Source: Bartonella bacilliformis KC583
GTDB taxonomy: Bacteria; Pseudomonadota; Alphaproteobacteria; Rhizobiales; Rhizobiaceae
Length of the DNA stretch: 64,000 nucleotides
Direction of reading: 5' to 3'
Assembly: GCF_000015445.1 (NCBI RefSeq)
Contig: NC_008783.1
Coordinates: 186,001-250,000 of the forward strand
How positions within the stretch are numbered: the stretch's first letter is position 1; each line of letters starts with the position of its first letter. The notes beneath the pieces were generated by a model. The model worked only from the letters and a program-made list of their open reading frames with translations, made no database searches and was not told the DNA's origin. This document shows positions 31,459 to 53,820 of this stretch, in pieces. Both the position numbers and the translations under genes were made by a program.

Positions 31459-31704
31459 AAAAATTGAAAAGATAAGGGACATAACAAGCATCAAGAAAAG
31501 ATACGAAATATTGACGAATTTAACAAAAATTTGTAGTAAAGCGTCGCCTCTGAAATCATCATTATGTGTTTCTTGCAAAGGATGAGAAGAAAGTGAGGAT
31601 TTTTAGGGAGTTTAGTTTATAAGCTCTCCCTCGCCGTAAAAATGGTCATTCATGATCATTGAGGTCTACGGATTTAGAGTTCTTTTAAAAGAAAGGTTTA
31701 TCTT

Positions 31705-31902
31705 ATGGGTGGTTTTTGGACTTTGATGTTCTTGTTGTCGATTTTTGGTGGAGCAGGATTGTTGTCTAAGAAAAGTGACAATGCTGGTACAAGTGGAGGT
31801 AGTTCTCAAGTAGCTTCTCTTCAGGCTTCGTCTACTGTTGAGGCTGTGTCTACTGCTGATGCTGTGTCTACTACTGTTGAAGTTTTCTCCACTTTTGTAT
31901 GA
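31705..31902 (+). CDS. Small membrane-anchored Ser/Ala/Thr-rich peptide, copy 1
   Basis: 65 residues, not recognised. It begins with one membrane helix (MGGFWTLMFLLSIFGGAGLL) and a Lys-Lys boundary. The tail is of low complexity, rich in Ser, Thr, Ala and Val, with a hexapeptide VSTADA, and ends EVFSTFV. AAAGG lies 8 nt before the ATG and a strong terminator follows. It is repeated at 32734 and, diverged, at 33783. Conservation of the start, ribosome site and C-terminal EVFS(T/A)FV while the tail varies argues for a translated gene. Possible roles (toxin, membrane or lysis peptide) are speculation. Confidence 0.6.
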   Translation: MGGFWTLMFLLSIFGGAGLLSKKSDNAGTSGGSSQVASLQASSTVEAVSTADAVSTTVEVFSTFV

Positions 31903-31980
31903 AGACTGTCCTTAAATTATAATAAATAGTCTAAGCATTTTTCCCGCATTCTCTGGGAAGTATGCAGAAAATAACAAAGG

Positions 31981-32035
31981 GCTCTTACTCTTAGGCAGTT
32001 CAAATTTAGGAGAGTGAGAGCTCTTTAATTTATTT
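31981..32035 (+). terminator. Intrinsic terminator of small-peptide gene copy 1
   Basis: An 11-bp stem, GCTCTTACTCT and AGAGTGAGAGC (one G-U pair), with a 19-nt loop, followed by TCTTTAATTTATTTTATT. Confidence 0.75.
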
Positions 32036-32113
32036 TATTTTCCTTATTTAGAATTATAATGGCAATGGCTGCGGACATTGACATGTCCAGAACATAGAAA
32101 CAACAAACATTCT

Positions 32114-32487
32114 GAGCATGTTTAATTGGCGCCCCTCTCAGTCTGTGTGGGGCTATGAAGAGGGAAGCGTGCTGACATAAGTGGTACGGTGGCGGCTTTA
32201 CGGGGTGATTCTTTTTGACAAAAATGAAAAAGCCCATCTCGATATTTTTAATCTCTTAACGTGCAAGTGCTGGATGAGGAAGCCGAAAATTTCTCTTCCA
32301 TAAAGGCTATGATTCGCTTTGTGGGGCGCGGCCTTTAAAACGAATTTTGCAAAGGGAAATTCAAGACCCACTGGCCGAAAAGATTTTGTTAGGACAAATT
32401 CCAGAAGGCGCAAGTGTGCATATTACAAAAGAGGGCAATGAATTGCAGTTTTCTGCTTTTCAGAAACCTCAGAAAAAAGCTCAATAA
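32114..32487 (+). pseudogene. clpB 3'-end fragment, copy 1
   Basis: The first part matches clpB from about 30784 (GGCGCCCCTC region of AAA2) through the Walker B segment with many changes. It then jumps by an internal deletion to the last ~75 codons, which are almost identical to clpB down to the stop and 3' flank. It is not a functional chaperone. Confidence 0.85.
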
Positions 32488-32733
32488 AAAAATTGAAAAG
32501 ATAAGGGACATAACAAGCATCAAGAAAAGATACGAAATATTGACGAATTTAACAAAAATTTGTAATAAGGCACCGCCTCTGAAATCATCATTATGTGTTT
32601 CTTGCAAAGGATGAGAAGAAAGTGAGGACTTTTGGGGAGTTTAGTTTATAAGCTCTCCCTCGCCTTGAAAAGGGTCATGAATGATCATTGAGGTCTATGG
32701 ATTTAGAGTTCTTTTAAAAGAAAGGTTTATCTT

Positions 32734-32949
32734 ATGGGTGGTTTTTGGACTTTGATGTTCTTGTTGTCGATTTTTGGTGGAGCAGGATTGTTGTCTAAGA
32801 AAAGTGACAATGCTGGTACAAGTGGAGGTAGTTCTCAAGTAGCTTCTCTTCAGGCTTCGTCTACTGTTGAGGCTGTGTCTACTGCTGATGCTGTGTCTAC
32901 TGCTGATGCTGTGTCTACTACTGTTGAAGTTTTCTCCACTTTTGTATGA
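32734..32949 (+). CDS. Small membrane-anchored Ser/Ala/Thr-rich peptide, copy 2
   Basis: 71 residues. Identical to copy 1 (31705) except for one extra hexapeptide AVSTAD in the tail, an 18-bp in-frame expansion. It has the same ribosome site, the same upstream clpB-derived sequence and the same terminator. The whole unit is displaced by 1029 bp. Confidence 0.6.
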   Translation: MGGFWTLMFLLSIFGGAGLLSKKSDNAGTSGGSSQVASLQASSTVEAVSTADAVSTADAVSTTVEVFSTFV

Positions 32950-33027
32950 AGACTGTCCTTAAATTATAATAAATAGTCTAAGCATTTTTCCCGCATTCTC
33001 TGGGAAGTATGCAGAAAATAACAAAGG

Positions 33028-33082
33028 GCTCTTACTCTTAGGCAGTTCAAATTTAGGAGAGTGAGAGCTCTTTAATTTATTT
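33028..33082 (+). terminator. Intrinsic terminator of small-peptide gene copy 2
   Basis: The same 11-bp stem as at 31981, with the right arm ending at 33068 and a T-rich run after it. Confidence 0.75.
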
Positions 33083-33160
33083 TATTTTCCTTATTTAGAA
33101 TTATAATGGCAATGGCTGCGGACATTGACATGTCCAGAACATAGAAACAACAAACATTCT

Positions 33161-33532
33161 GAGCATGTTTAATTGGCGCCCCTCTCAGTCTGTGTGGGGC
33201 TATGAAGAGGGAAGCGTGCTGACCTAAGTCGTGCGGCGGCGACCTTACCAGGTTATTCTTTTTGACAAAAATGAAAAAGTACATCTCAATATTTTTAATC
33301 TCTTAACGTGCAAGTGCTGGATGAAGAAGCTAAGCGATTCCTCGCCCATAAAGGCTATAATCCGCTTTATGGGGCGCGGCCTTTAAAACGAATTTTGCAA
33401 AGGGAAATTCAAGACCCACTGGCTGAAAAGATTTTGTTAGGACAAATTCCAGAAGGCGCAAGTGTGCATATTACAAAAGAGGGTAACGAATTGCAGTTTT
33501 CTGCTTTTCAGAAACCTCAGAAAAAAGCTTAA
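33161..33532 (+). pseudogene. clpB 3'-end fragment, copy 2
   Basis: Same structure as copy 1: a decayed AAA2 Walker B part joined to an almost intact C-terminus. A 74-residue frame (33308-33532) still reads EEAKRFLAHKGYNPLYGARP to the clpB stop, but no ribosome site precedes it. Confidence 0.85.
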
Positions 33533-33782
33533 TAAAAAAATTGAAAAGATAAGGGACATAACAAGCATCAGAAAAAAGATACGAAATATTGACGAATTTA
33601 ACAAAAATTTGTACTAAAGCGTCGCCTCTAAAATCATCATTATGTGTTTCTTGCAAAGGATGAGAAGAAGGTGAGGATTTTTGGGGAGTTTAGGTTATAA
33701 GCTCTCCCTCGCCTTGAAAATGATCATAAATGATCATCGAGGTATATAGATTTAGAGTTATTTTAAAAGAGAGGTTTATCTT

Positions 33783-34043
33783 ATGGTAGGTGAGTTGTTT
33801 GCGTCCGCGGTGTTATTGCTTGCGAGTGTGGGTGCATTCGTAGTGAAATTGTCTAAGGAAAGTGAAGCTGTTCAGGCATCGGGAGATAGTTCTGAAGGAG
33901 TTCCTTCTGGGGTTTCGCATACTGCTGATACTGTGACTGCTGCTGATACTTCGTCTATTGCTGATGCTTTGACGACTCCTGAGGTTGTGTCTGTTGCTGA
34001 TGCTTTGTCTACTGCTGCTGAAGTTTTCTCTGCTTTTGTATAA
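33783..34043 (+). CDS. Small membrane-anchored Ser/Ala/Thr-rich peptide, copy 3 (diverged)
   Basis: 86 residues. The membrane helix is different in sequence (LFASAVLLLASVGAFVVKLS) but the design is the same: short N-terminus, one helix, Lys, then repeats of (T/S)xADA(L/V) and the ending EVFSAFV. Upstream (AGAGGTTTATCTT) and downstream flanks match copies 1 and 2. Divergence of the helix with conservation of layout suggests selection for the type of peptide rather than recent accidental copying. Confidence 0.6.
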   Translation: MVGELFASAVLLLASVGAFVVKLSKESEAVQASGDSSEGVPSGVSHTADTVTAADTSSIADALTTPEVVSVADALSTAAEVFSAFV

Positions 34044-34118
34044 AGACAGTCCTTAAATTATAATAAATAGTCTAAGCATTTTTTCCGCATTCTCTGGGAA
34101 GTATGCAGAAAATGACAG

Positions 34119-34175
34119 AGGGCTCTTACTCTTAGGCAGTTCAAATTTAGGAGAGTGAGAGCCCTTTAATTTATT
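34119..34175 (+). terminator. Intrinsic terminator of small-peptide gene copy 3
   Basis: GGGCTCTTACTCT pairs with AGAGTGAGAGCCC over 13 bp, then TTTAATTTATTTTG. The extra pairs are formed by a change in the right arm (GCTC to GCCC). Confidence 0.75.
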
Positions 34176-34250
34176 TTGTTTTCCTTATTTAGGTTTATAA
34201 GGGCAATGGCTGCGACATTGACATGTCCGGAACATAGAAAAACATTCTGT

Positions 34251-34678
34251 GCATGTTTAATTGGCACTCCTCTCAGTCTGTGTGGGGCTATGAAGAGGGA
34301 AGAGTGCTGACCTAAGTTGTGCGGTGGCGGCTTTACTAGGTTATTCCTTTTGACAAAAATGAAAAAGCCCATCTCGATATTTTTAATCTCTTAACATGCA
34401 AGTGCTGGGTGAGGAAGCCAAGCGATTCCTTGCCCATAAAGGCTATAATCCGCTTTATGGGGCGTGGCCTTTAAAACGAATTTTGCAAAGGGAAATTCAA
34501 GACCCACTGGCCGACATGAATGACCCTTTTAAAGGGAGGGAGAGCTTATAACCTAAACTCCCTAAACATCCTCACTTTCTTCTCATCTTTTGCAAAGATT
34601 TTGTTAGGACAAATTCCAGAAGGCGCAAGTGTGCATATTACAAAAGAGGGTAATGAATTGCAGCTTTCTGCTTTTTAG
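34251..34678 (+). pseudogene. clpB 3'-end fragment, copy 3, with inverted insert
   Basis: Third copy of the clpB-derived segment. It is split at about 34514-34596 by an ~83-bp insert that is the reverse complement of the unit's own 3' flank (CTCACTTTCTTCTCATC...). An early TAG replaces the Gln codon near the end. Clearly non-functional. Confidence 0.85.
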
Positions 34679-34930
34679 AAAAACACAGAAAAAAGCTCAG
34701 TAAAAAAGCTATGAAAAAATAACATACATAATATGAATACAAAAAAAGATATTAGAGATTGACAATTATGGCAAAAATGTGCAAACATGTATCGTTATTA
34801 GAATTCTCGGATATTGGTTTATCGAAGATACGAGGGAGGGGGAAAGCTAAATATGTTTTGGCTGTCTTCGTATCAAAGATAATGATTTATGGGGGGATTC
34901 TGAAATTATTATCTTTAGGAGGATTTTGTA

Positions 34931-35089
34931 ATGGATTTAAATATGAATATGTCGGCTGTGCTGAATGTTATGGAACCTTTGGTTCAAGAGTTTGTTGGGG
35001 TTGGACCAAAACAGGTTGCTTCTGCAGTTATTGAACATCTCCCTAATTTATTATCATGGGGTATGGACGCTGTATTGACCATTCTGTAA
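34931..35089 (+). CDS. Hypothetical 52-residue peptide
   Basis: TAGGAGG lies 9 nt before the ATG and a strong intrinsic terminator follows at 35191. The sequence has a Met-rich start (MDLNMNMSAVLN) and amphipathic helices (QVASAVIEHLPNLL, WGMDAVLTIL), with no clear transmembrane segment. Not recognised. An overlapping frame from 34759 is longer but has poor composition and no ribosome site. It is positioned where the next small-peptide unit would be expected. Confidence 0.5.
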   Translation: MDLNMNMSAVLNVMEPLVQEFVGVGPKQVASAVIEHLPNLLSWGMDAVLTIL

Positions 35090-35237: not shown

Positions 35238-35456
35238 AAAAGATCATAGGGTTATTGTTGCACCATCATGGTTGCCCATCATGGTTGCATTGTATAGAGA
35301 TAATCTATCCTATCAAAATTTATGAAAAATATGCTAAAATACAATATGGGTTAATAGGAGCTTTTCTTAAAAGAAGATTGTTAAACAATCAGTTGTGGTA
35401 AAAGTAGTATTTTTATCCGAAATGGTTGGAAAGGTGGCCGCTATATTCTTTAATTT

Positions 35457-35490
35457 TTGAAAAATCCTAATCAGTAAAAAACAACTGATT
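35457..35490 (-). terminator. Terminator of the first MDP-peptide operon
   Basis: Reading the minus strand: AATCAGT, an 8-nt T-rich loop, ACTGATT, then AGGATTTTT. The same element with ~100 bp of flank follows the second peptide operon at 37925. Confidence 0.65.
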
Positions 35491-35589
35491 GCAAGGCAAA
35501 AATACTTAAGCTCTATGACATATTTGAATTGCATACTTTTCCATAAATCCCCTCCCCTTATATTTTTTAATCCTGTGAAAAAAATAAAA

Positions 35590-35694
35590 TCAAATAGTAT
35601 TAGTATGCTTTAGTAAAAACGTCATCGTTTGTGCGAAATTAAGAATTAAGGAAATGCCAAATACAACTGCCAAAGATATAGTTACGGGATCCAT
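35590..35694 (-). CDS. MDP-type single-helix peptide (operon 1, second gene)
   Basis: 34 residues: MDPVTISLAVVFG, a continuous hydrophobic helix, then QTMTFLLKHTNTI. AAGAGG lies 6 nt before the ATG. Its C-terminus matches that of the peptide at 38059 (ETMTFLLKPTTAAN). Likely a small inner-membrane peptide. Comparable peptides include type I toxins and small holin-like proteins; none is recognised by sequence. Confidence 0.6.
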   Translation of the reverse strand: MDPVTISLAVVFGISLILNFAQTMTFLLKHTNTI

Positions 35695-35711
35695 GTTAAA
35701 CCTCTTATTTT

Positions 35712-35801
35712 TTATTTATTAATAAACCGTAATCGTTTGTACGAAACTAAAACTACGGAACCTCCAAATACAACCAATAAAGATAAAGTTAGCGGGTCCA
35801 T
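35712..35801 (-). CDS. MDP-type single-helix peptide (operon 1, first gene, altered C-terminus)
   Basis: 29 residues beginning MDPLTLSLLVVFGGSVVL. The DNA after that still resembles the FxQTxT end of its paralogues, but a 1-nt indel shifts it, giving the basic tail SYKRLRFINK. A ribosome site TAGGAAA precedes the ATG. Possibly a damaged copy. Confidence 0.5.
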   Translation of the reverse strand: MDPLTLSLLVVFGGSVVLVSYKRLRFINK

Positions 35802-35814
35802 ATTAAATTTCCTA

Positions 35815-35935
35815 TTTCTCTATATCATTTCCAAAAAATAATTACAAATCTTAATGTACGTCACTAAGTTTGTATATATATATCAATATATTGCATTATA
35901 GCTATGTGTTTTTGCATGCATTATTTTGGTGCATT
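35815..35935 (-). promoter_or_regulatory. Shared leader/promoter region of MDP-peptide operon 1
   Basis: About 110 bp upstream of the first peptide gene are conserved with 38530-38640. Both have CACATAGC(T/C)ATAATGCAA followed by an A/T-rich TATATA/TATAAT segment and then GGAAATGATATAGAGAAATAG before the ribosome site. The shared position relative to both operons marks it as their promoter and untranslated leader. Exact boxes are uncertain. Confidence 0.5.
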
Positions 35936-36103
35936 TTTAATAAATTTTTTTTAAAAAGGGGACAGTTAAGAAATAGGAATTTGCGTTCAGAAAGTTGGAA
36001 CCTTGTCTATGACAAAAGAAGATTCTGATGGGCTTTTTCTTGTTTAAGAAAACTTAGGTTTAATAAAAAGGTTAGATTCGTAATATCAATGAGGAGATTT
36101 ATC

Positions 36104-36208
36104 ATGTTATTTGAAACAATAGCATTTACAGTATTGTGGATTATTGGTGGGATGGCTTTTGCCGTCAAGATGGCTGAATGGGTAAATGGCACACCAGCAT
36201 CAAGCTAA
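36104..36208 (+). CDS. Single-helix membrane peptide (34 residues)
   Basis: Starts MLFETIAFTVLWIIGGMAFA, one membrane helix, then KMAEWVNGTPASS. GAGGAG lies 7 nt before the ATG, the same arrangement as in the MDP peptides, but it is on the opposite strand and not clearly related in sequence. Too short for family assignment. Confidence 0.5.
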   Translation: MLFETIAFTVLWIIGGMAFAVKMAEWVNGTPASS

Positions 36209-36837
36209 TTAATAATAAAATTTTTTCTTTAATGTTACCCCATCATTAGTGCTTGCCACGTCGTGATTTCAATATTGGTCGGTGTAGCGCTATGATAAGA
36301 GGATTGACAAGAGGGTTGACAATGTTAGGTTTTGAGCAATGCAAATATTGCGTTCGGTATAGTTCAGAGCTTTCGGTGGTAACTTATCACCTCAGGGGGG
36401 CGTTGCCCTGTTAATAAAAAATGATCACCTTATTTGAGCGTATTTTAAATAGAATTGTTGCAAAAAGACAGTGAAAATTGGTCAGCAAAAAACTTTTATT
36501 TAGGTGATTTTTGAAAGATTGCACCGTGCTGTAACATAAGCAGAATTTGTGCTGTCATAACGAAAAAAAACAACAGATTTCTGCTCTGATGAAGAATGTA
36601 AAGAAACAGGTTCGATAAAAAGCTGTCAGAAGATAACGAACGGTTATAAGAAAACACAAGGAAGTTGACAGGCTATCCTACTTATATAAAAAAAATGGCA
36701 TCATCATTCTATCTTGTTCGTTGAAAATGTAAAACGAGAGATGAGAGGACTCAGTATATAAAGATGTTTCAGCTATTTTCTGAGATACAAAGACGGCTTC
36801 TGATAGAGGGAGTCTAATTTTTTAAAGGGGGTGTTTC
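36209..36837. other. Intergenic, nothing firm
   Basis: AT-rich. It has two TTGACA boxes near 36303 and 36315, small hairpins GGTG-gtaacttat-CACC and CAGGG-gggcgttg-CCCTG near 36380-36412, and no supported gene. Confidence 0.4.
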
Positions 36838-37025
36838 ATGGGCGTGTTATCTATATTTTATTGGTTTGGATTTCTATTTCAGCAATGGTTCGGTGCCTAA
36901 AGGCTGTTGTTACTAAAGTTACTTCTGGGGCTATGTTTTCCAGCAGTTTTTTCTACGAGGAATTGTTAAAGCTGCATAAACCGTCACGTAGACTTTTGTA
37001 TATAAAGTATAGCAATTTTGTGTGA
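36838..37025 (+). pseudogene. Remnant of a fourth small membrane-peptide gene
   Basis: It begins like the 31705 family (AAAGGGGGTGTTTC then ATGGGCGTG) with a hydrophobic start, but stops after 20 codons. The end matches the family in another frame: (S)NFV then TGTGAAGTAAGCTGTCCTT against FSTFV then TATGAAGACTGTCCTT. I read it as a frameshifted copy of that family. Confidence 0.45.
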
Positions 37026-37195
37026 AGTAAGCTGTCCTTTTTTAGGAACTGTAAAGAACATTTTTCTGATTTCATTGTACAAGAATTACTATAGATTTTA
37101 AGAATTTTTTATTATTTGTTTATTCTCACAGTAAGTTTTATTATAAAAAACAAGCAAAGAATATTTGTCTTATTTTTTTACCTATGCAAAAAACA

Positions 37196-37224
37196 TTGAC
37201 AAGGTTAATCCAGACACATATAAT
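37196..37224 (+). promoter_or_regulatory. Perfect sigma70 promoter ahead of the packaging cluster
   Basis: TTGACA at 37196-37201 and TATAAT at 37219-37224 with a 17-bp spacer: both boxes and the spacing are ideal. The next gene is the small terminase at 37488, giving an untranslated leader of about 255 nt. Confidence 0.75.
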
Positions 37225-37487
37225 AAACGCATAATTAGAACTCTGACTGTACTTATAGAGTTGCGAGCAGCTGAGTTATTTCAGCGTTATATTTAGGTAT
37301 TAGATTTTCAGAGGCATGGCTGCTCTGTTTTAGGCGTTTCTTCGTTGTTAGAAGAGGGTGTTTTGGAGCGGTTATAGTGGAGAAAGCTCTATTCTTTGCT
37401 GTCAGAACCTTTGATTTGATTTTTAGATTGCTCTTGTGGGTTAGTCCTTTTAGCGATTTTCTATTCTTGAAAGAAGGAGGTCTTATT

Positions 37488-37844
37488 GTGACTCATGAAA
37501 AGTTTTTTCCCCCTTGGAACAAAGATGATAATTCTTTGCGGATACCAGGAAGAGGGCAGCCAAAAGATGCATGCAATCAAACAACAAAATTGCTCAAAGA
37601 TGCTATTCTTATTGCTGCTGAACAAGCAGGATACCATCATGGCCAAGAGGGGCTGGTGTCTTATCTGCAATATCATGCGTTGAATAACCCTGTGCCGTTC
37701 TTTTCACTTTTAGCGAAGGTTTTGCCTCTGCAAATAACTGAAGAAGAGGAAAGCGATGTCAAAACGATTTCGCGTATCGAGATTGTGCCTGTGGTTTCAA
37801 AAAAGAGTGCGCAGGATACAAAAACTTTCACGGAAATATCATGA
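37488..37844 (+). CDS. Phage terminase small-subunit-like protein
   Basis: 118 residues from a GTG at 37488 with a perfect AAGGAGG 7 nt upstream; the frame is open further upstream without a site. The core (PGRGQPKDACNQTT, LLKDAILIAAEQAG, HHGQEGLVSYLQYHALNNP, FFSLLAKVLPLQI) matches a group of phage proteins encoded just before the large terminase and taken as the DNA-recognition subunit. It is the first gene of the cluster, behind the perfect promoter. If the cluster is the Bartonella gene transfer agent, this would be bgtA. About 1 kb with an opposing peptide operon now separates it from the large subunit. Confidence 0.7.
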   Translation: MTHEKFFPPWNKDDNSLRIPGRGQPKDACNQTTKLLKDAILIAAEQAGYHHGQEGLVSYLQYHALNNPVPFFSLLAKVLPLQITEEEESDVKTISRIEIVPVVSKKSAQDTKTFTEIS

Positions 37845-37924
37845 TTATGAGATATCAGTTGGCGAAGTACACTATTATGAACACGGGCTATTGTAAAAAT
37901 AACCGCCCTGTCTATACCAAAATT

Positions 37925-37960
37925 TTTGAAAAATCCTAATCAGTAAAAAACAACTGATTG
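37925..37960 (-). terminator. Terminator of the second MDP-peptide operon
   Basis: Identical stem (AATCAGT/ACTGATT) and flank to the one at 35457-35490. Confidence 0.65.
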
Positions 37961-38058
37961 CAAGGCAAAAATACTTAAGCTCTATGACATATTTGAATTG
38001 CATACTTTTCCATAAATCCCCCCCCCTTATATTTTTTAATCCTGTGAAAAAAATAAAA

Positions 38059-38166
38059 TCAATTAGCAGCAGTAGTAGGCTTTAGTAAAAACGTCATCGT
38101 TTCTATGAAATTGAAAAATACGTAACCGCCAAATATAGCAAATAAAGCTATAGTTACAGGATCCAT
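38059..38166 (-). CDS. MDP-type single-helix peptide (operon 2, fourth gene)
   Basis: 35 residues: MDPVTIALFAIFGGYVFFNF, then IETMTFLLKPTTAAN. AGGAGA lies 6 nt before the ATG. It is closest to the peptide at 35590 in its C-terminus and to 38203 in its N-terminus. Confidence 0.6.
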   Translation of the reverse strand: MDPVTIALFAIFGGYVFFNFIETMTFLLKPTTAAN

Positions 38167-38202
38167 ATCAAATCTCCTATTTTTTTGTTATTAAAACCAT
38201 CA

Positions 38203-38313
38203 TCATTTATTTTTTAGTATTACTGTCATCGTTGTTATGAAATCGAAAAATACGTAGCTGCCAAATATAGCAAATAAGGCTATCGTTATGGGATCTACGT
38301 TAAATCTCCTCAT
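38203..38313 (-). CDS. MDP-type peptide with shifted start (operon 2, third gene)
   Basis: The usual ATG-GAT-CC start has become GTA-GAT-CC. An in-frame ATG five codons upstream (38313) overlaps the stop of the preceding peptide as TAATG, so the product would be MRRFN followed by VDPITIALFAIFG and TTMTVILKNK, 36 residues by translational coupling. Alternatively the copy is silent. Confidence 0.45.
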   Translation of the reverse strand: MRRFNVDPITIALFAIFGSYVFFDFITTMTVILKNK

Positions 38314-38405
38314 TATTTATGCAATAAAACTGCCACCATTCCTATGAAATTAGAAAGTGTAGTAAATCCAAATATAGCAAGTAAAGTTATCGTTATGGGA
38401 TCCAT
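38313..38405 (-). CDS. MDP-type single-helix peptide (operon 2, second gene)
   Basis: 30 residues: MDPITITLLAIFGFTTLSNF, then IGMVAVLLHK. AAGAGA precedes the ATG by 6 nt. Its stop overlaps a possible start of the next copy. Confidence 0.6.
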   Translation of the reverse strand: MDPITITLLAIFGFTTLSNFIGMVAVLLHK

Positions 38406-38415
38406 GTTAAATCTC

Positions 38416-38514
38416 TTATTTTTTCCCTACTACTGCAGCCGTTATTATTTCTATAAGACCAAAAAGCGAAGCAGATCCGCCTACAATCAATAAAGCCAAA
38501 GTAAATGGGTCCAT
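38416..38514 (-). CDS. MDP-type single-helix peptide (operon 2, first gene)
   Basis: 32 residues: MDPFTLALLIVGGSASLFGL, then IEIITAAVVGKK. AGGAGA lies 6 nt before the ATG. The most diverged member; it sits first after the shared leader. Confidence 0.6.
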   Translation of the reverse strand: MDPFTLALLIVGGSASLFGLIEIITAAVVGKK

Positions 38515-38529
38515 ATAATATCTCCTATT

Positions 38530-38640
38530 TCTCTATATCATTTCCAAAAGATGATTATGCCTTTTAATAGATGTCTCTCAGTTTGTAAATATTATATTAT
38601 ATCAATATCTTGCATTATGGCTATGTGTTTTTGCATGGGT
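38530..38640 (-). promoter_or_regulatory. Shared leader/promoter region of MDP-peptide operon 2
   Basis: Homologous to 35815-35935. It contains TATAATATAAT on the minus strand, downstream of CACATAGCCATAATGCAA, and the conserved GGAAATGATATAGAGAAATAG leading into the first ribosome site. Confidence 0.5.
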
Positions 38641-38890
38641 TTTTCTTATAGGAGAAGAAGAGGTGATCTTTCAGGAAGACTCTCTTGATTTGTGCATTTC
38701 TGAAGCAAAGCTTCTTTCAACTTTTTACTCTGAATCATGTCACATACCATTTGGTCTTTATGTGTAGAGGTGATGTCATTTCTGAACATTGTTTCACCTT
38801 TGGAGTGCTCATACGAAGACTTTTAAACCCTGCGGCTTTTAATCCTGCAGTTTTTCAATTCTGATGCTTTTCAAGCCTGATCGCACATGG

Positions 38891-40216
38891 ATGACCACGA
38901 TGCAAATTTCTCTTATTCCAAAACTCATTCCTGTTTTTGCTGGAGAGGCGGATATTCGCGCCGCTTGGGGAGGGCGGGGATCTGGAAAAACACGCTCCTT
39001 TGCTTTGATGTCTGCTGTGATTGGCTATCGTTATGGCAAAGCAGGAGAGCGAGGGGTGATCTTATGTGCACGACAATTTCAAAATTCGCTCAATGAGAGC
39101 TCTCTAGAAGAAATTAAACGCGCCATTGAAGCCTATCCATTCTTGCGTGACTATTATGATGTTGGCGATAAATATGTGAAGTCAAAAGATGGTCGCATTC
39201 TTTATACTTTTGCCGGCCTTGATCGCAATATCTCTAGCATTAAATCAATGGGGCGTATTCTCCTGTGCTGGGTTGATGAGGCCGAACCTGTGACTGAAAC
39301 TGCTTGGCAAACTTTGATCCCTACACTGCGTGAAGAAGGGCAGGATTGGCATTCTGAATTATGGGTGACGTGGAATCCTTTGCGTGAAAATGCTCCCGTT
39401 GAAAAACGCTTTCGCTTGACAAAAGATCCCAATATCAAAGGCGTTGAAATTAATTGGCGGGATAATCCGCAATTTCCTGATAAACTAAACCGAGATCGGC
39501 TGGCAGATTTGCATCAAAGACCGGAACAATATGGCCATATTTGGGAGGGCGATTATCTGCAGGCTGTCCAGGGAGCATATTACCAAAAATTATTGCTGGA
39601 CGCTGAACAAGAGGGACGCATTGCCCATGTATCCCGTGACCCGCTTATTCAGATCAAAATCTTTTGGGATATTGGGGGAACAGGTGCTAAAGCAGATGCA
39701 ACGGCTTTGTGGGTGGCGCAATTTATCGGCCGGGAAATCCGCATTCTTGATTATTATGAAGCACAGGGACAACCCCTGTCTGAGCATATTGGCTGGATAT
39801 GTCATCGCGGCTATGACAAAGCGCTTATGGTGTTGCCGCATGATGGGGCGACGAAAGATCGTGTTTATAATGTGAGTTTTGAAAGTGCTTTGCAACAGGC
39901 TGGGTTTCAAACCAAAATTATTCCCAACCAGGGGCTGGGTGCTGTCAAAATGCGTATTGAAGCTGTTCGGCGTTTATTTCCTGCTATGTGGTTTAACCGT
40001 GAGACAACAAAAGCTGGGCGAAAAGCGCTGGCATGGTATCATGAAAAACGTGATGAACAACGCAATATTGGCTTGGGTGCTGAACATGATTGGGCTAGCC
40101 ATGGTGCAGATAGTTTTGGGCTTTTATGTGTTGCTTATGAACAACCAACCTTGCAGCCGCGAAAGAATGTTTATCATCGTCGTCCTCCTTCACAAACTTC
40201 ATGGATGGCTTTTTAA
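38891..40216 (+). CDS. Phage terminase large subunit
   Basis: ATPase-nuclease that drives DNA into capsids. 441 residues from the ATG at 38891 (earlier ATG at 38864 and later ATG at 38900 are possible; none has a clear ribosome site). ATPase: Walker A-like WGGRGSGKTRSFA and Walker B region ILLCWVDEAEPV (PBSX/P22-type family). The C-terminal nuclease shows FWDIGGTGAKADATALWVAQ, MVLPHDGATKD and the late acidic HDWASHGADSFG. It is intact. The last bases (CATGGATGGCTTTTT) are repeated just before the portal gene. Confidence 0.92.
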   Translation: MTTMQISLIPKLIPVFAGEADIRAAWGGRGSGKTRSFALMSAVIGYRYGKAGERGVILCARQFQNSLNESSLEEIKRAIEAYPFLRDYYDVGDKYVKSKDGRILYTFAGLDRNISSIKSMGRILLCWVDEAEPVTETAWQTLIPTLREEGQDWHSELWVTWNPLRENAPVEKRFRLTKDPNIKGVEINWRDNPQFPDKLNRDRLADLHQRPEQYGHIWEGDYLQAVQGAYYQKLLLDAEQEGRIAHVSRDPLIQIKIFWDIGGTGAKADATALWVAQFIGREIRILDYYEAQGQPLSEHIGWICHRGYDKALMVLPHDGATKDRVYNVSFESALQQAGFQTKIIPNQGLGAVKMRIEAVRRLFPAMWFNRETTKAGRKALAWYHEKRDEQRNIGLGAEHDWASHGADSFGLLCVAYEQPTLQPRKNVYHRRPPSQTSWMAF

Positions 40217-40966
40217 GAGAGAAAATCTCTTAAATGGGGGGCAATCGTAGCATGGTTAAACTAGTTACTGGTATCAGAATAGAATGCTCTTGTTTGGGCT
40301 ATCAGAATAGTGCGGCTTGTATATTGGGTTTTCGGATTAGGGAGTGGGTTGTCGGATAGAGAGGTACTAGACTGTTAGAATTGGGCGAATGGGAGTCAGG
40401 ACAGGGGTCTTGTGTTGAGTTACCGGGTAGGGGTTCTATTGGGTTTATTTGAGATTGTTAGAATTGGGCGAGTGAGCGGTCAAGATAAGGGTCTTGTGTT
40501 GATTTATCAGGTAGGGGCCTGTTGGGTTACCAGGTAGGGGTCTATTGGAACTTTAGGATTGGGCAAGTCAGTGATCAGGATAGGAGCCTATGTTTGGCGT
40601 ATCAGACCGAAAGAATATTAGGCTGTTAGGATGGCGAGGCCTGTACGGGATCCTAGGTGTATAGGATGCTATGTGTATGGGATATCAAGACAGAAGGATC
40701 TGAGACTCTCGGATGGTGGGGCATAAGACAAAAAGTGTATTGGATTATTCGGGCAGAGGTTTCCGTGTTGGGAGCTGTTTAGGGGTAGCAAGATTTAGCG
40801 ATTAAAATAGGGGCTTTTGTGGAGCAGGGCTCTGGTTAGGGATGAGCACACGCAGTTTTATGTATCAGGATACGCTTTTTTAAATAATTTGCCCACGAAT
40901 ATCAGGACGGTATGGCCCTTGTATGGGGCCATTTTTCTTTTCTCAAACATCATGGATGGCTTTTTG
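40217..40966. repeat. 750-bp repeat-filled insertion between terminase and portal
   Basis: Degenerate repeats of TTAGAATTGGGCGA(A/G)TG, CAGGATAGGGGTCTTG and ATCAGGTAGGGG fill the region. The terminase tail CATCATGGATGGCTTTTT reappears at 40949-40965, immediately before the portal ATG. This shows that the two genes were once adjacent and that the insertion was made by duplication around that junction. No gene seen. Confidence 0.75.
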
Positions 40967-42838: not shown

Positions 42839-43423
42839 ATAGTGGCCGTGATGCAGAAGGCTGTGATGCTGGGGAAATGGTGCTGGGTGCTATGCAAGTC
42901 CATATAAGTACGGGCCAAGAGAGGGGCAGTAGGAGGTATGGGTTAAGAGCCGTGACGCCAGAGACTAAGAGTGGGGGTCATAAGTAGGGGGCCCATGCAG
43001 AGGCTTTGAATGGGGCCGTGATGCTGGGGAAATGGTGCTGGGTGCTATGCAAATGCCATATGAGTACGGGCCAAGAGAGAGGCGGTAGGAGTAAGAGGTA
43101 TGGGTTAAGAGCCATGATGCCAGAGACTAAGAGTGGGGTTCATAAGTAGGGGGCCATGTAGAAGCCGTGAATGGGGCCGTGATGCTGGGGAGATGATTCC
43201 GGGTGCTATGCAAGTGCCATAGTGAGTACAAGCCAAGAGTGGGGCGGTGAGTAGGAGGAGGTATGGGTCAAGAGCCATGATGCCCTGAGGGGTTATGGGG
43301 CAAGGGAGAAGCCTGCTCCTTAAGCTTTTAGGCAGCGAGGATGAGGGGATAAGGATCCTCTCCATAAAGAAAAGAAAATTCTTAACCACGAGATTATTGT
43401 CCAAGAAAGAGAAGGTGAAAACA
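42839..43423. repeat. Three ~158-bp tandem repeats between portal and scaffold genes
   Basis: GTGATGCTGGGGA(A/G)ATG begins units at about 42863, 43018 and 43179. They share GGTGCTATGCAA, GGGCCAAGAGAG and CCAGAGACTAAGAGTGGG. No gene seen. The open frame entering the scaffold gene from 43295 lacks a ribosome site. Confidence 0.8.
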
Positions 43424-53101: not shown

Positions 53102-53157
53102 GCATTACACTCATCATTATGAGCTTCAGAGAAGCTTTTTGTGGGGGATTAAGAATT

Positions 53158-53820
53158 ATGCGAAAAATATCAAAGGAAGGCTTTGCCTTACTCCAACAAT
53201 GGGAAGGCTTACGTTTAGAAGCCTATCAAGATGCTGTGGGGATCTGGACGATTGGTCATGGCCATACAACAGGAGCAGGGGCGCCCTTTGTGCGCAAGGG
53301 GATGAAGATTACCAAGGCCCAAGCAGAGGCCATTTTGCGACGCGATTTGGTGCAATTTGAAAAGGCTGTTGAACAGGGGGTGTTTCAGCCTTTAACGGAT
53401 GAGCAATTTGCTGCTCTTGTCTCTTTTTGCTATAATGTTGGGGTGGAAGCTTTTTGCCAATCTACCTTGTTAAAAAAGCTCAATAAAGGGGATTATGAAG
53501 CTGTCCCCGCTGAGTTGCAAAAATGGACAAGAGCAGGAGGAAAACGCTTAAAAGGGCTTGTGCACCGGCGCGCTGCTGAAGCAGGTTTGTGGGCTAAGGG
53601 GGCTTATGTTTCTTCCAATTACCAAAAGGTAGAAACAGTAGAGAAATTGTCTCTGTTGAATGTGGAAATTTTAGCGCCAATTATTGGGTCTTTTTCTGGA
53701 TTAACGGGTTTTTTCACTGGATATGGTCCTGTGCAATGGGCTTTGGCTGTTGTGATGGTGACAGCCGGGATTGTTGGTGTTTTTGTCTATATTGCTCGGA
53801 TGAGAGAGGAAAAGAGATGA
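53158..53820 (+). CDS. Endolysin, GH24 (T4-type) lysozyme with C-terminal membrane anchor
   Basis: Cuts the glycan strands of peptidoglycan for particle release. 220 residues from the ATG at 53158, with GGGGGA 9 nt upstream. The catalytic triad E16-D25-T31 lies in LLQQWEGLRL, AYQDAVGIWTIGHGHT. The rest of the lysozyme fold follows (LTDEQFAALVSFCYNVG). Unlike secreted endolysins it has no N-terminal signal; instead one hydrophobic segment near the C-terminus (WALAVVMVTAGIVGVFVYIA) would tether it. It overlaps the spanin gene by 4 bp. Confidence 0.9.
   Translation: MRKISKEGFALLQQWEGLRLEAYQDAVGIWTIGHGHTTGAGAPFVRKGMKITKAQAEAILRRDLVQFEKAVEQGVFQPLTDEQFAALVSFCYNVGVEAFCQSTLLKKLNKGDYEAVPAELQKWTRAGGKRLKGLVHRRAAEAGLWAKGAYVSSNYQKVETVEKLSLLNVEILAPIIGSFSGLTGFFTGYGPVQWALAVVMVTAGIVGVFVYIARMREEKR

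Follow-up and report, generated by a model that had tools for sequence, protein, structure and literature searches.

A 64,000-nucleotide stretch of the Bartonella bacilliformis KC583 genome (the window; positions 186,001 to 250,000 of contig NC_008783.1) carries six related frames on the minus strand, each 29–35 codons long and arranged in two groups, A (A1 and A2) and B (B1–B4). From their sequences, the six frames form a small-peptide family that is, as far as searched, private to the B. bacilliformis lineage. We propose, with a probability of about 0.4, that they make up an array of single-helix membrane peptides acting in the manner of type I toxins, specific to this lineage and in part decaying. 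Their small size, the predicted helix, and a hydrophobic constraint that leaves the sequence otherwise free fit membrane-active peptides of this kind, which are more likely than parts of the neighboring gene-transfer machinery. The main rival explanation is a decaying repeat, which is weighed below.

The six peptide genes

Group A consists of A1 (35712–35801, 29 amino acids) and A2 (35590–35694, 34 amino acids), and group B of B1 (38416–38514, 32 amino acids), B2 (38313–38405, 30 amino acids), B3 (38203–38298, 31 codons) and B4 (38059–38166, 35 amino acids). All six were present where the initial annotation had placed them. Its description of Met-Asp-Pro starts, one of them changed, is also borne out: five of the six frames, including A1 and B4, start with ATG, and B3 alone has GTA at the start position. 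For B3, an in-frame ATG at 38313, five codons upstream of the GTA, overlaps the stop codon of B2, and coupled translation from this ATG could start the frame. Ribosome-site cores precede B1, B4, and A2, while TAGGA precedes A1 and GAGGAG precedes the B3 GTA; the B2 site is weaker (AGAG).

The peptides align without gaps over 29 positions, of which D2, P3, T5, L8, and G13 are invariant. A structure model of B4, calculated with the other five peptides as the alignment, consists of one helix over residues 3–28 with a mean pLDDT of 86, in agreement with the hydrophobic helix originally suggested for each peptide. The maximum hydropathy over 19 residues is 1.86–2.17 for the six peptides, and each has at least one lysine in its last third. 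The net charge is +3 for A1 and −1 to 0 for the other five.

A profile built from the six peptides matched all six in their own genome (searched as a single contig of 1,445,021 bp) with E values of 2.0e-19 to 1.1e-14, and no seventh copy was found there at E up to 0.5. A DNA query found only groups A and B in this genome, and a single-peptide query found the same two places. The coding parts of the copies differ at 17–52% of sites, with a mean of 39%. The kinship of the six is thus supported, and with it the original view of one duplicated family.

Of the differences between the copies, codon position 2 holds 23.9%, compared with 32.9% in simulated neutral sets (4 of 1000 sets as low), and the mean hydropathy is 1.67, compared with 1.20 (111 of 5000 sets as high). 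These simulations start from a present copy and use a star tree, and are therefore rough. The conservation of codon position 2 and of hydrophobicity suggests that the helix seems to matter more than its exact sequence, and the hydrophobic constraint speaks against pure drift.

Frames of this size lie at or near the usual gene-length limits of annotation. Since the frames are small and no family model among those used matches them, routine annotation may miss the array.

The same array in a second strain

A 22-nt block in the leader, which lies before the start and is exactly common to both groups (two matches in the genome search, 0.01 expected), also matches exactly at two places in the IMG/VR contig IMGVR_UViG_2639762865_000001 (18,090 bp). 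This contig has the same layout as KC583 and contains the same six peptide genes. The B1 protein is identical. In A1 the start is ACG and one residue is changed; A2 carries three changes in its helix and differs in the tail, its 3′ end being cut off by the contig end; B2 shows one silent change and one replacement; B3 retains GTA, with one change; and B4 has a GTG start and eight more changed codons. As the contig starts within A2 and probably comes from a short-read assembly, the ends shared by A2 and B4 could be affected. Two further exact patterns found no third strain in the IMG/VR collection.

Comparison of the two strains gives 23 substitutions over 588 aligned sites in the peptide genes. 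The 1,913 nt between the two groups, which include the gene for the small terminase subunit (TerS), have no substitutions and a single gap column, and four coding sequences of the Bartonella gene transfer agent (BaGTA) differ at 69 of 5617 sites. The peptide genes are therefore more variable than either (Fisher p 2.5e-15 and 1e-5, respectively). That this needs a special cause is called into question by nearby tandem-repeat stretches, which vary more (46/597 at 40217–40816 and 52/450 at 42839–43294, which includes the repeat stretch 42859–43284), and by the scaffold gene, alone among the four BaGTA sequences in coming near the peptide-gene rate (36/1068, 3.4%). We note that the tandem-repeat stretches have 8–12% substitutions, compared with about 1% or less in the large terminase (terL), portal, and capsid genes.

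Two explanations for the differences were tried and rejected. Copy-to-copy conversion as their source within the helix is not supported, as 7 of 13 new bases occur in another copy, with 51% expected. Nor is positive selection between the strains: over codons 2–29, 9 of 11 changes alter the protein, compared with 66% expected (p 0.23).

Leaders, flanks, and history of the array

The upstream region and leader of group A (35802–35925) contain TGATATA, an extended −10-like sequence, beginning at 35885; those of group B (38515–38644) contain a predicted −10 sequence TATAAT preceded by TG, with a poor −35. The extended −10-like TGATATA is common to group A, group B, and the locus of B. bacilliformis Ver097 (L025), described below. 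The leaders of the two groups are 82% identical over about 125 nt. Downstream, the group A flank (35452–35605) and the group B flank (37921–38074) are 97% identical over 154 nt, and adjoining these flanks A2 and B4 are about 79% identical. With the flank 97% identical and the genes diverged by a mean of 39%, the two are not of one age. The flank was probably homogenised later; gene conversion looks likely for it and for the ends of A2 and B4, which in each strain are common to both genes. The initial annotation described a whole operon duplicated with the same leader of ~110 bp. The shared leader with its 22-nt block, the shared flank, and the single family agree with a duplication; the correction is one of degree, in that the two leaders are only 82% identical and flank and genes differ in age. 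Both copied flanks also contain a 12-codon minus-strand frame, MEKYAIQICHRA, at 38013 and 35544, with a very strong ribosome site; this frame was not seen in the Ver097 sequence.

Ver097 is the closest (96%) of 62 terminase loci that were fetched. Its gap between TerS and terL contains one relative of the peptide genes under the same extended −10-like sequence, which was spotted by eye and escapes the small-frame filters. The relative is truncated by a stop after 18 codons, and its start position reads ACG. No group A is seen there: Ver097, in which two stretches read N, matches the window as far as 35451, one base short of the copied flank (from 35452 on). Because the remnant lies in the TerS–terL gap and no group A is seen, the array probably resided first in the gap and was copied from there to give group A.

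Taken together, these sequences suggest that the array arose recently in one lineage, is changeable, and is in part decaying. If the peptides are translated, comparing strains within a single species shows how a tiny membrane-protein family is born, multiplies, and is lost, some copies apparently having been silenced by start-codon changes.

Distribution in Bartonella and beyond

A search for homologues across Bartonella had been suggested as a check on the array. Searches with the single peptides B4 and A1 and with the six-peptide profile found no intact relative in 70 other Bartonella genomes. With B4 as query, 12 of 71 genomes matched at E up to 1, namely the own genome and 11 others at E 0.09 or worse; with A1, four matched. 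Outside the own genome these matches (12 places for B4 and 3 for A1, E 0.09–0.62) were rejected: the 11 of the 12 and one of the three that were examined have no similar short frame, and the remaining places, in L010, L019, and L020, were set aside as parts of frames of 267–974 amino acids. The profile matched 28 of the 71 genomes at E up to 0.5. Judged from the table only, the matches in the 27 genomes other than KC583 (E 0.001–0.5) are partial, contain stops, or fall within long frames, and were rejected. In the family, 11 of 297 genomes matched at E up to 0.05; the ten others (E 0.003–0.05), again judged from the table, are all within frames of 172 amino acids or more and were likewise rejected.

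Among the fetched terminase loci, 39 are Bartonella loci with the same terminase. They contain 62 frames of 22–50 amino acids that start with M[DEN]P, none of which is a likely relative. The only hydrophobic one that begins with MDP, in L046, was rejected because it is out of frame in a 271-residue frame and has no ribosome site, and similar frames in L051 and L073 are also out of frame in a long frame. TerS was placed in 33 of the 39 loci, the other six holding too little sequence upstream of terL, and the gap between TerS and terL ranges from 80 to 1543 bp. No comparable array was found in any of these 33 loci, one of which, Ver097, contains the remnant. In eight of the 33 there are small hydrophobic frames of another kind, 11 in total, each preceded by a ribosome-site-like sequence; these are plus-strand frames throughout, and MDP starts do not occur among them.

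Sequence searches of the PDB gave two chains only, with E values of 3.3 and 6.4. Four records from a phage collection (E 0.2–9, the best being a microvirus pilot protein over 20 residues) were taken as chance matches. No published account of these peptides was found in the open-licence literature. A study of small RNAs in B. bacilliformis reports 160 RNAs, which are in its supplementary table (PMC7717549), and the accessible parts of PMC2697382 and PMC5382735 contain nothing further on the peptides.

Evidence against a functional array

Several results weigh against a functional array of toxin-like peptides. None of the six peptides has a match among the Pfam, NCBIfam, or PADLOC families, and the five that were queried against PHROGs also had none (best E 0.063). 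The leaders fold no better than shuffled sequences (z 0.53 and 1.80), so the ribosome site is not hidden by structure. The region has fewer promoter-like matches than its shuffled versions do (13 compared with 18.5), and the only plus-strand one near group A is weak (35654–35682, 9 of 12 positions). The terminator that the initial annotation placed in the shared flank is possible at most: a 7-bp hairpin (35469–35490 in group A, followed by a minus-strand T-run, and 37938–37959 in group B) may act as one, but it is weak (z −1.4, with 18 of 200 shuffles folding as well), and the terminator scan does not list it. The same scan does list a minus-strand terminator-like site inside B1 (38482–38464).

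The synonymous excess that selection on the six copies had been expected to leave is also missing. Their pooled pN/pS is 0.81, compared with a mean of 0.85 in neutral sets whose frames were kept open (444 of 1000 as low), and single pairs range in dN/dS from 0.37 to 1.81. Of 5000 neutral sets, 473 also keep the full set of six frames open, which makes their persistence only mildly unusual, and start codons are changed both in the second strain and in Ver097. The claim of selection on the peptide family therefore survives in part, in the constraint on codon position 2 and on hydropathy, and is weakened by the neutral pN/pS, the changed starts, and the lack of an intact homologue in the 70 other genomes. 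The initial annotation held that a lack of homologues outside the strain and of a synonymous excess would tell against it; this is nearly what was found, the exceptions being the second strain and the Ver097 remnant.

These observations are what would be expected if an old peptide gene had been multiplied by slippage and recombination in a repeat-rich stretch and were now a functionless, near-neutral repeat, with its frames still open because the copies are young. We regard this as possible, though somewhat doubtful. It would account for the neutral-like pN/pS, the share of neutral sets in which no frame closes, the changed and truncated copies, the failure to find a relative in the other 69 Bartonella genomes, and a variability that is exceeded by the nearby tandem repeats and about equaled by the scaffold gene. 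It accounts poorly for the constraint on codon position 2 and on hydropathy, for a B1 protein that is unchanged between strains, and for a ribosome-site block of 22 nt that is exactly kept in both groups.

Comparison with known small membrane proteins

The type I toxins Ldr and Ibs occur as several related copies side by side, and in this the array resembles them. Membrane-associated type I toxins in general are under 60 amino acids long, hydrophobic, and helical, usually with a cationic C-terminus, according to the portion of PMC8309996 consulted. The array is like Ibs, Ldr, Fst, TisB, and DinQ in its size (29–35 amino acids), its one predicted hydrophobic helix, and a positive residue near the C-terminus. 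It differs from them in having no sequence match to any family model, no good opposing promoter near group A, and a ribosome site that is not hidden by leader structure.

If the array works like type I toxins, a unit would have been copied from the TerS–terL gap to 35.5 kb, with the gap now holding four copies. A separate minus-strand promoter would drive each group, and each intact copy would give one short membrane-spanning helix. Inserted in the inner membrane, an excess of this helix would slow growth or lower the membrane potential, as do membrane-associated type I toxins. Transcription of the BaGTA genes across group B from the opposite strand may turn group B down by antisense control. 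The loss of some copies through changed start codons while others persist is what would be expected of a dispensable and weakly selected device.

Another reading is that the peptides are non-toxic accessory proteins. KdpF and CydX are small accessory membrane subunits of about 30 amino acids with one helix, and the peptides are alike in both respects. Such proteins would bind or tune a membrane complex and would have been multiplied for dosage. The single predicted helix, the short polar ends, and a net charge of −1 to +3 fit small subunits, and low toxicity would explain several copies without a visible antitoxin. We nevertheless consider this unlikely: invariance is limited to five positions, too few for the conserved face expected of a partner-binding helix, and, unlike KdpF and CydX, the peptide genes are not beside membrane-complex genes, are multiplied, and are restricted to one lineage.

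The gene transfer agent neighborhood

Group B lies in the gap between a TerS-like gene (37488–37844, plus strand; named by position only, and matching PHROG 11043, of unknown function) and terL of BaGTA (38864–40216, plus strand; Terminase_3), on the strand opposite to both. This is the location between the small and large terminase genes that was first reported. The likeness to the BaGTA cluster of PMC3610622 is one of neighborhood, namely the TerS-like gene, terL, portal, capsid, and the endolysin BgtA. In the sections consulted, that study describes nine BaGTA genes conserved in all of its genomes, the shortest of 330 bp, and the peptide genes are not among these nine. A BaGTA core gene would be kept in the genus together with the cluster; for the peptides no intact relative was found in 70 other Bartonella genomes.

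This bears directly on the suggestion, made in the initial annotation, that the peptides are pinholin-like and serve an endolysin without a visible holin; here they would release BaGTA particles. Like pinholins and other small holins they are short, predicted hydrophobic helices near phage-type genes, and no separate holin came up, although no search aimed at holins was made. A pinholin, however, has two membrane segments, the first a releasable SAR segment, compared with one predicted helix here. The peptide genes are on the strand opposite to the endolysin gene (53119–53820) and about 15 kb from it, and the endolysin matches the BgtA equivalog model over residues 14–232, its C-terminal hydrophobic segment included. 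As the BaGTA genes are kept through the genus (PMC3610622, in the part consulted) and no such array occurs in the 33 Bartonella loci with TerS and terL placed, a role in particle release is highly improbable. On lysis, the available text of PMC6899734 attributes it possibly to lysozyme-related proteins.

The antisense position between two BaGTA genes also raises the question of whether the array is a regulatory RNA or a transcription-collision element in which the small frames are incidental. In favor of such an element, the two groups resemble each other more closely in the 154-nt flank than in their coding parts. Yet neither the constraint on codon position 2 nor the shared starts would be expected of it, the leaders are not structured, and an Rfam scan found nothing in the peptide region (three weak matches elsewhere, best E 0.12). 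A non-coding element is therefore very unlikely.

Upstream of TerS, a perfect TTGACA-17-TATAAT at 37196–37224 on the plus strand forms part of a 40-nt motif (37196–37235), TTGACAAGGT.AATC..A......TAT.ATAA, drawn up from the window and two loci (L025 and L042). The motif is found upstream of TerS on the same strand in all 33 TerS-holding Bartonella loci (among L025–L061, L073, and L086) with at most 7 mismatches in 32 positions, compared with 9–11 at best (medians 12–13) for three shuffled motifs. Its distance to TerS is 0.4–4.6 kb, and the six loci without it also have no TerS on the contig. The 20-nt core occurs exactly at one place in the own genome, and with up to 3 mismatches at 7 places, compared with 6 for a reversed control. 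We conclude that the motif is most likely a BaGTA promoter, probably with an operator; no title or abstract was found that reports a BaGTA promoter. In several loci a GTATCAT-N-ATGATAC palindrome, seen by eye, lies over the −10 of the motif.

A transcript reading through from this motif into terL could cross group B in antisense. Against such read-through, two weak plus-strand terminator-like sites (37270–37285 and 37640–37655) lie between the motif and group B. A bolder form of the toxin-like reading, which we consider quite unlikely, is a lineage-specific switch. The minus-strand peptides would restrain growth or lower the membrane potential in cells that do not make particles, and BaGTA transcription from the conserved motif would shut off group B by an antisense effect. 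Making particles and making peptides would then be mutually exclusive states of a cell, and strains would tune the switch through start codons and copies. If the peptides are translated, the antisense position of group B between two packaging genes of a gene transfer agent would also link such peptides to the choice of the cell to make particles.

Other small frames and repeats in the window

A 34-residue hydrophobic frame on the plus strand (36104–36208) has a good ribosome site and is unchanged in the second strain; a search of 70 other Bartonella genomes with an E cutoff of 0.1 found no match. The plus-strand frame at 34931–35089 (52 amino acids) has a strong ribosome site. As Ver097 keeps it at 86% identity, with a 3-nt deletion that leaves the frame intact, it is probably a real small gene; at the same E cutoff, the remaining 69 Bartonella genomes gave no match. 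At 31535–34700 on the plus strand the clpB 3′ end is repeated in three partial tandem copies. Small frames separate these copies, including, at 33783, a frame of 86 amino acids with one hydrophobic segment and a Ser/Ala-rich tail.

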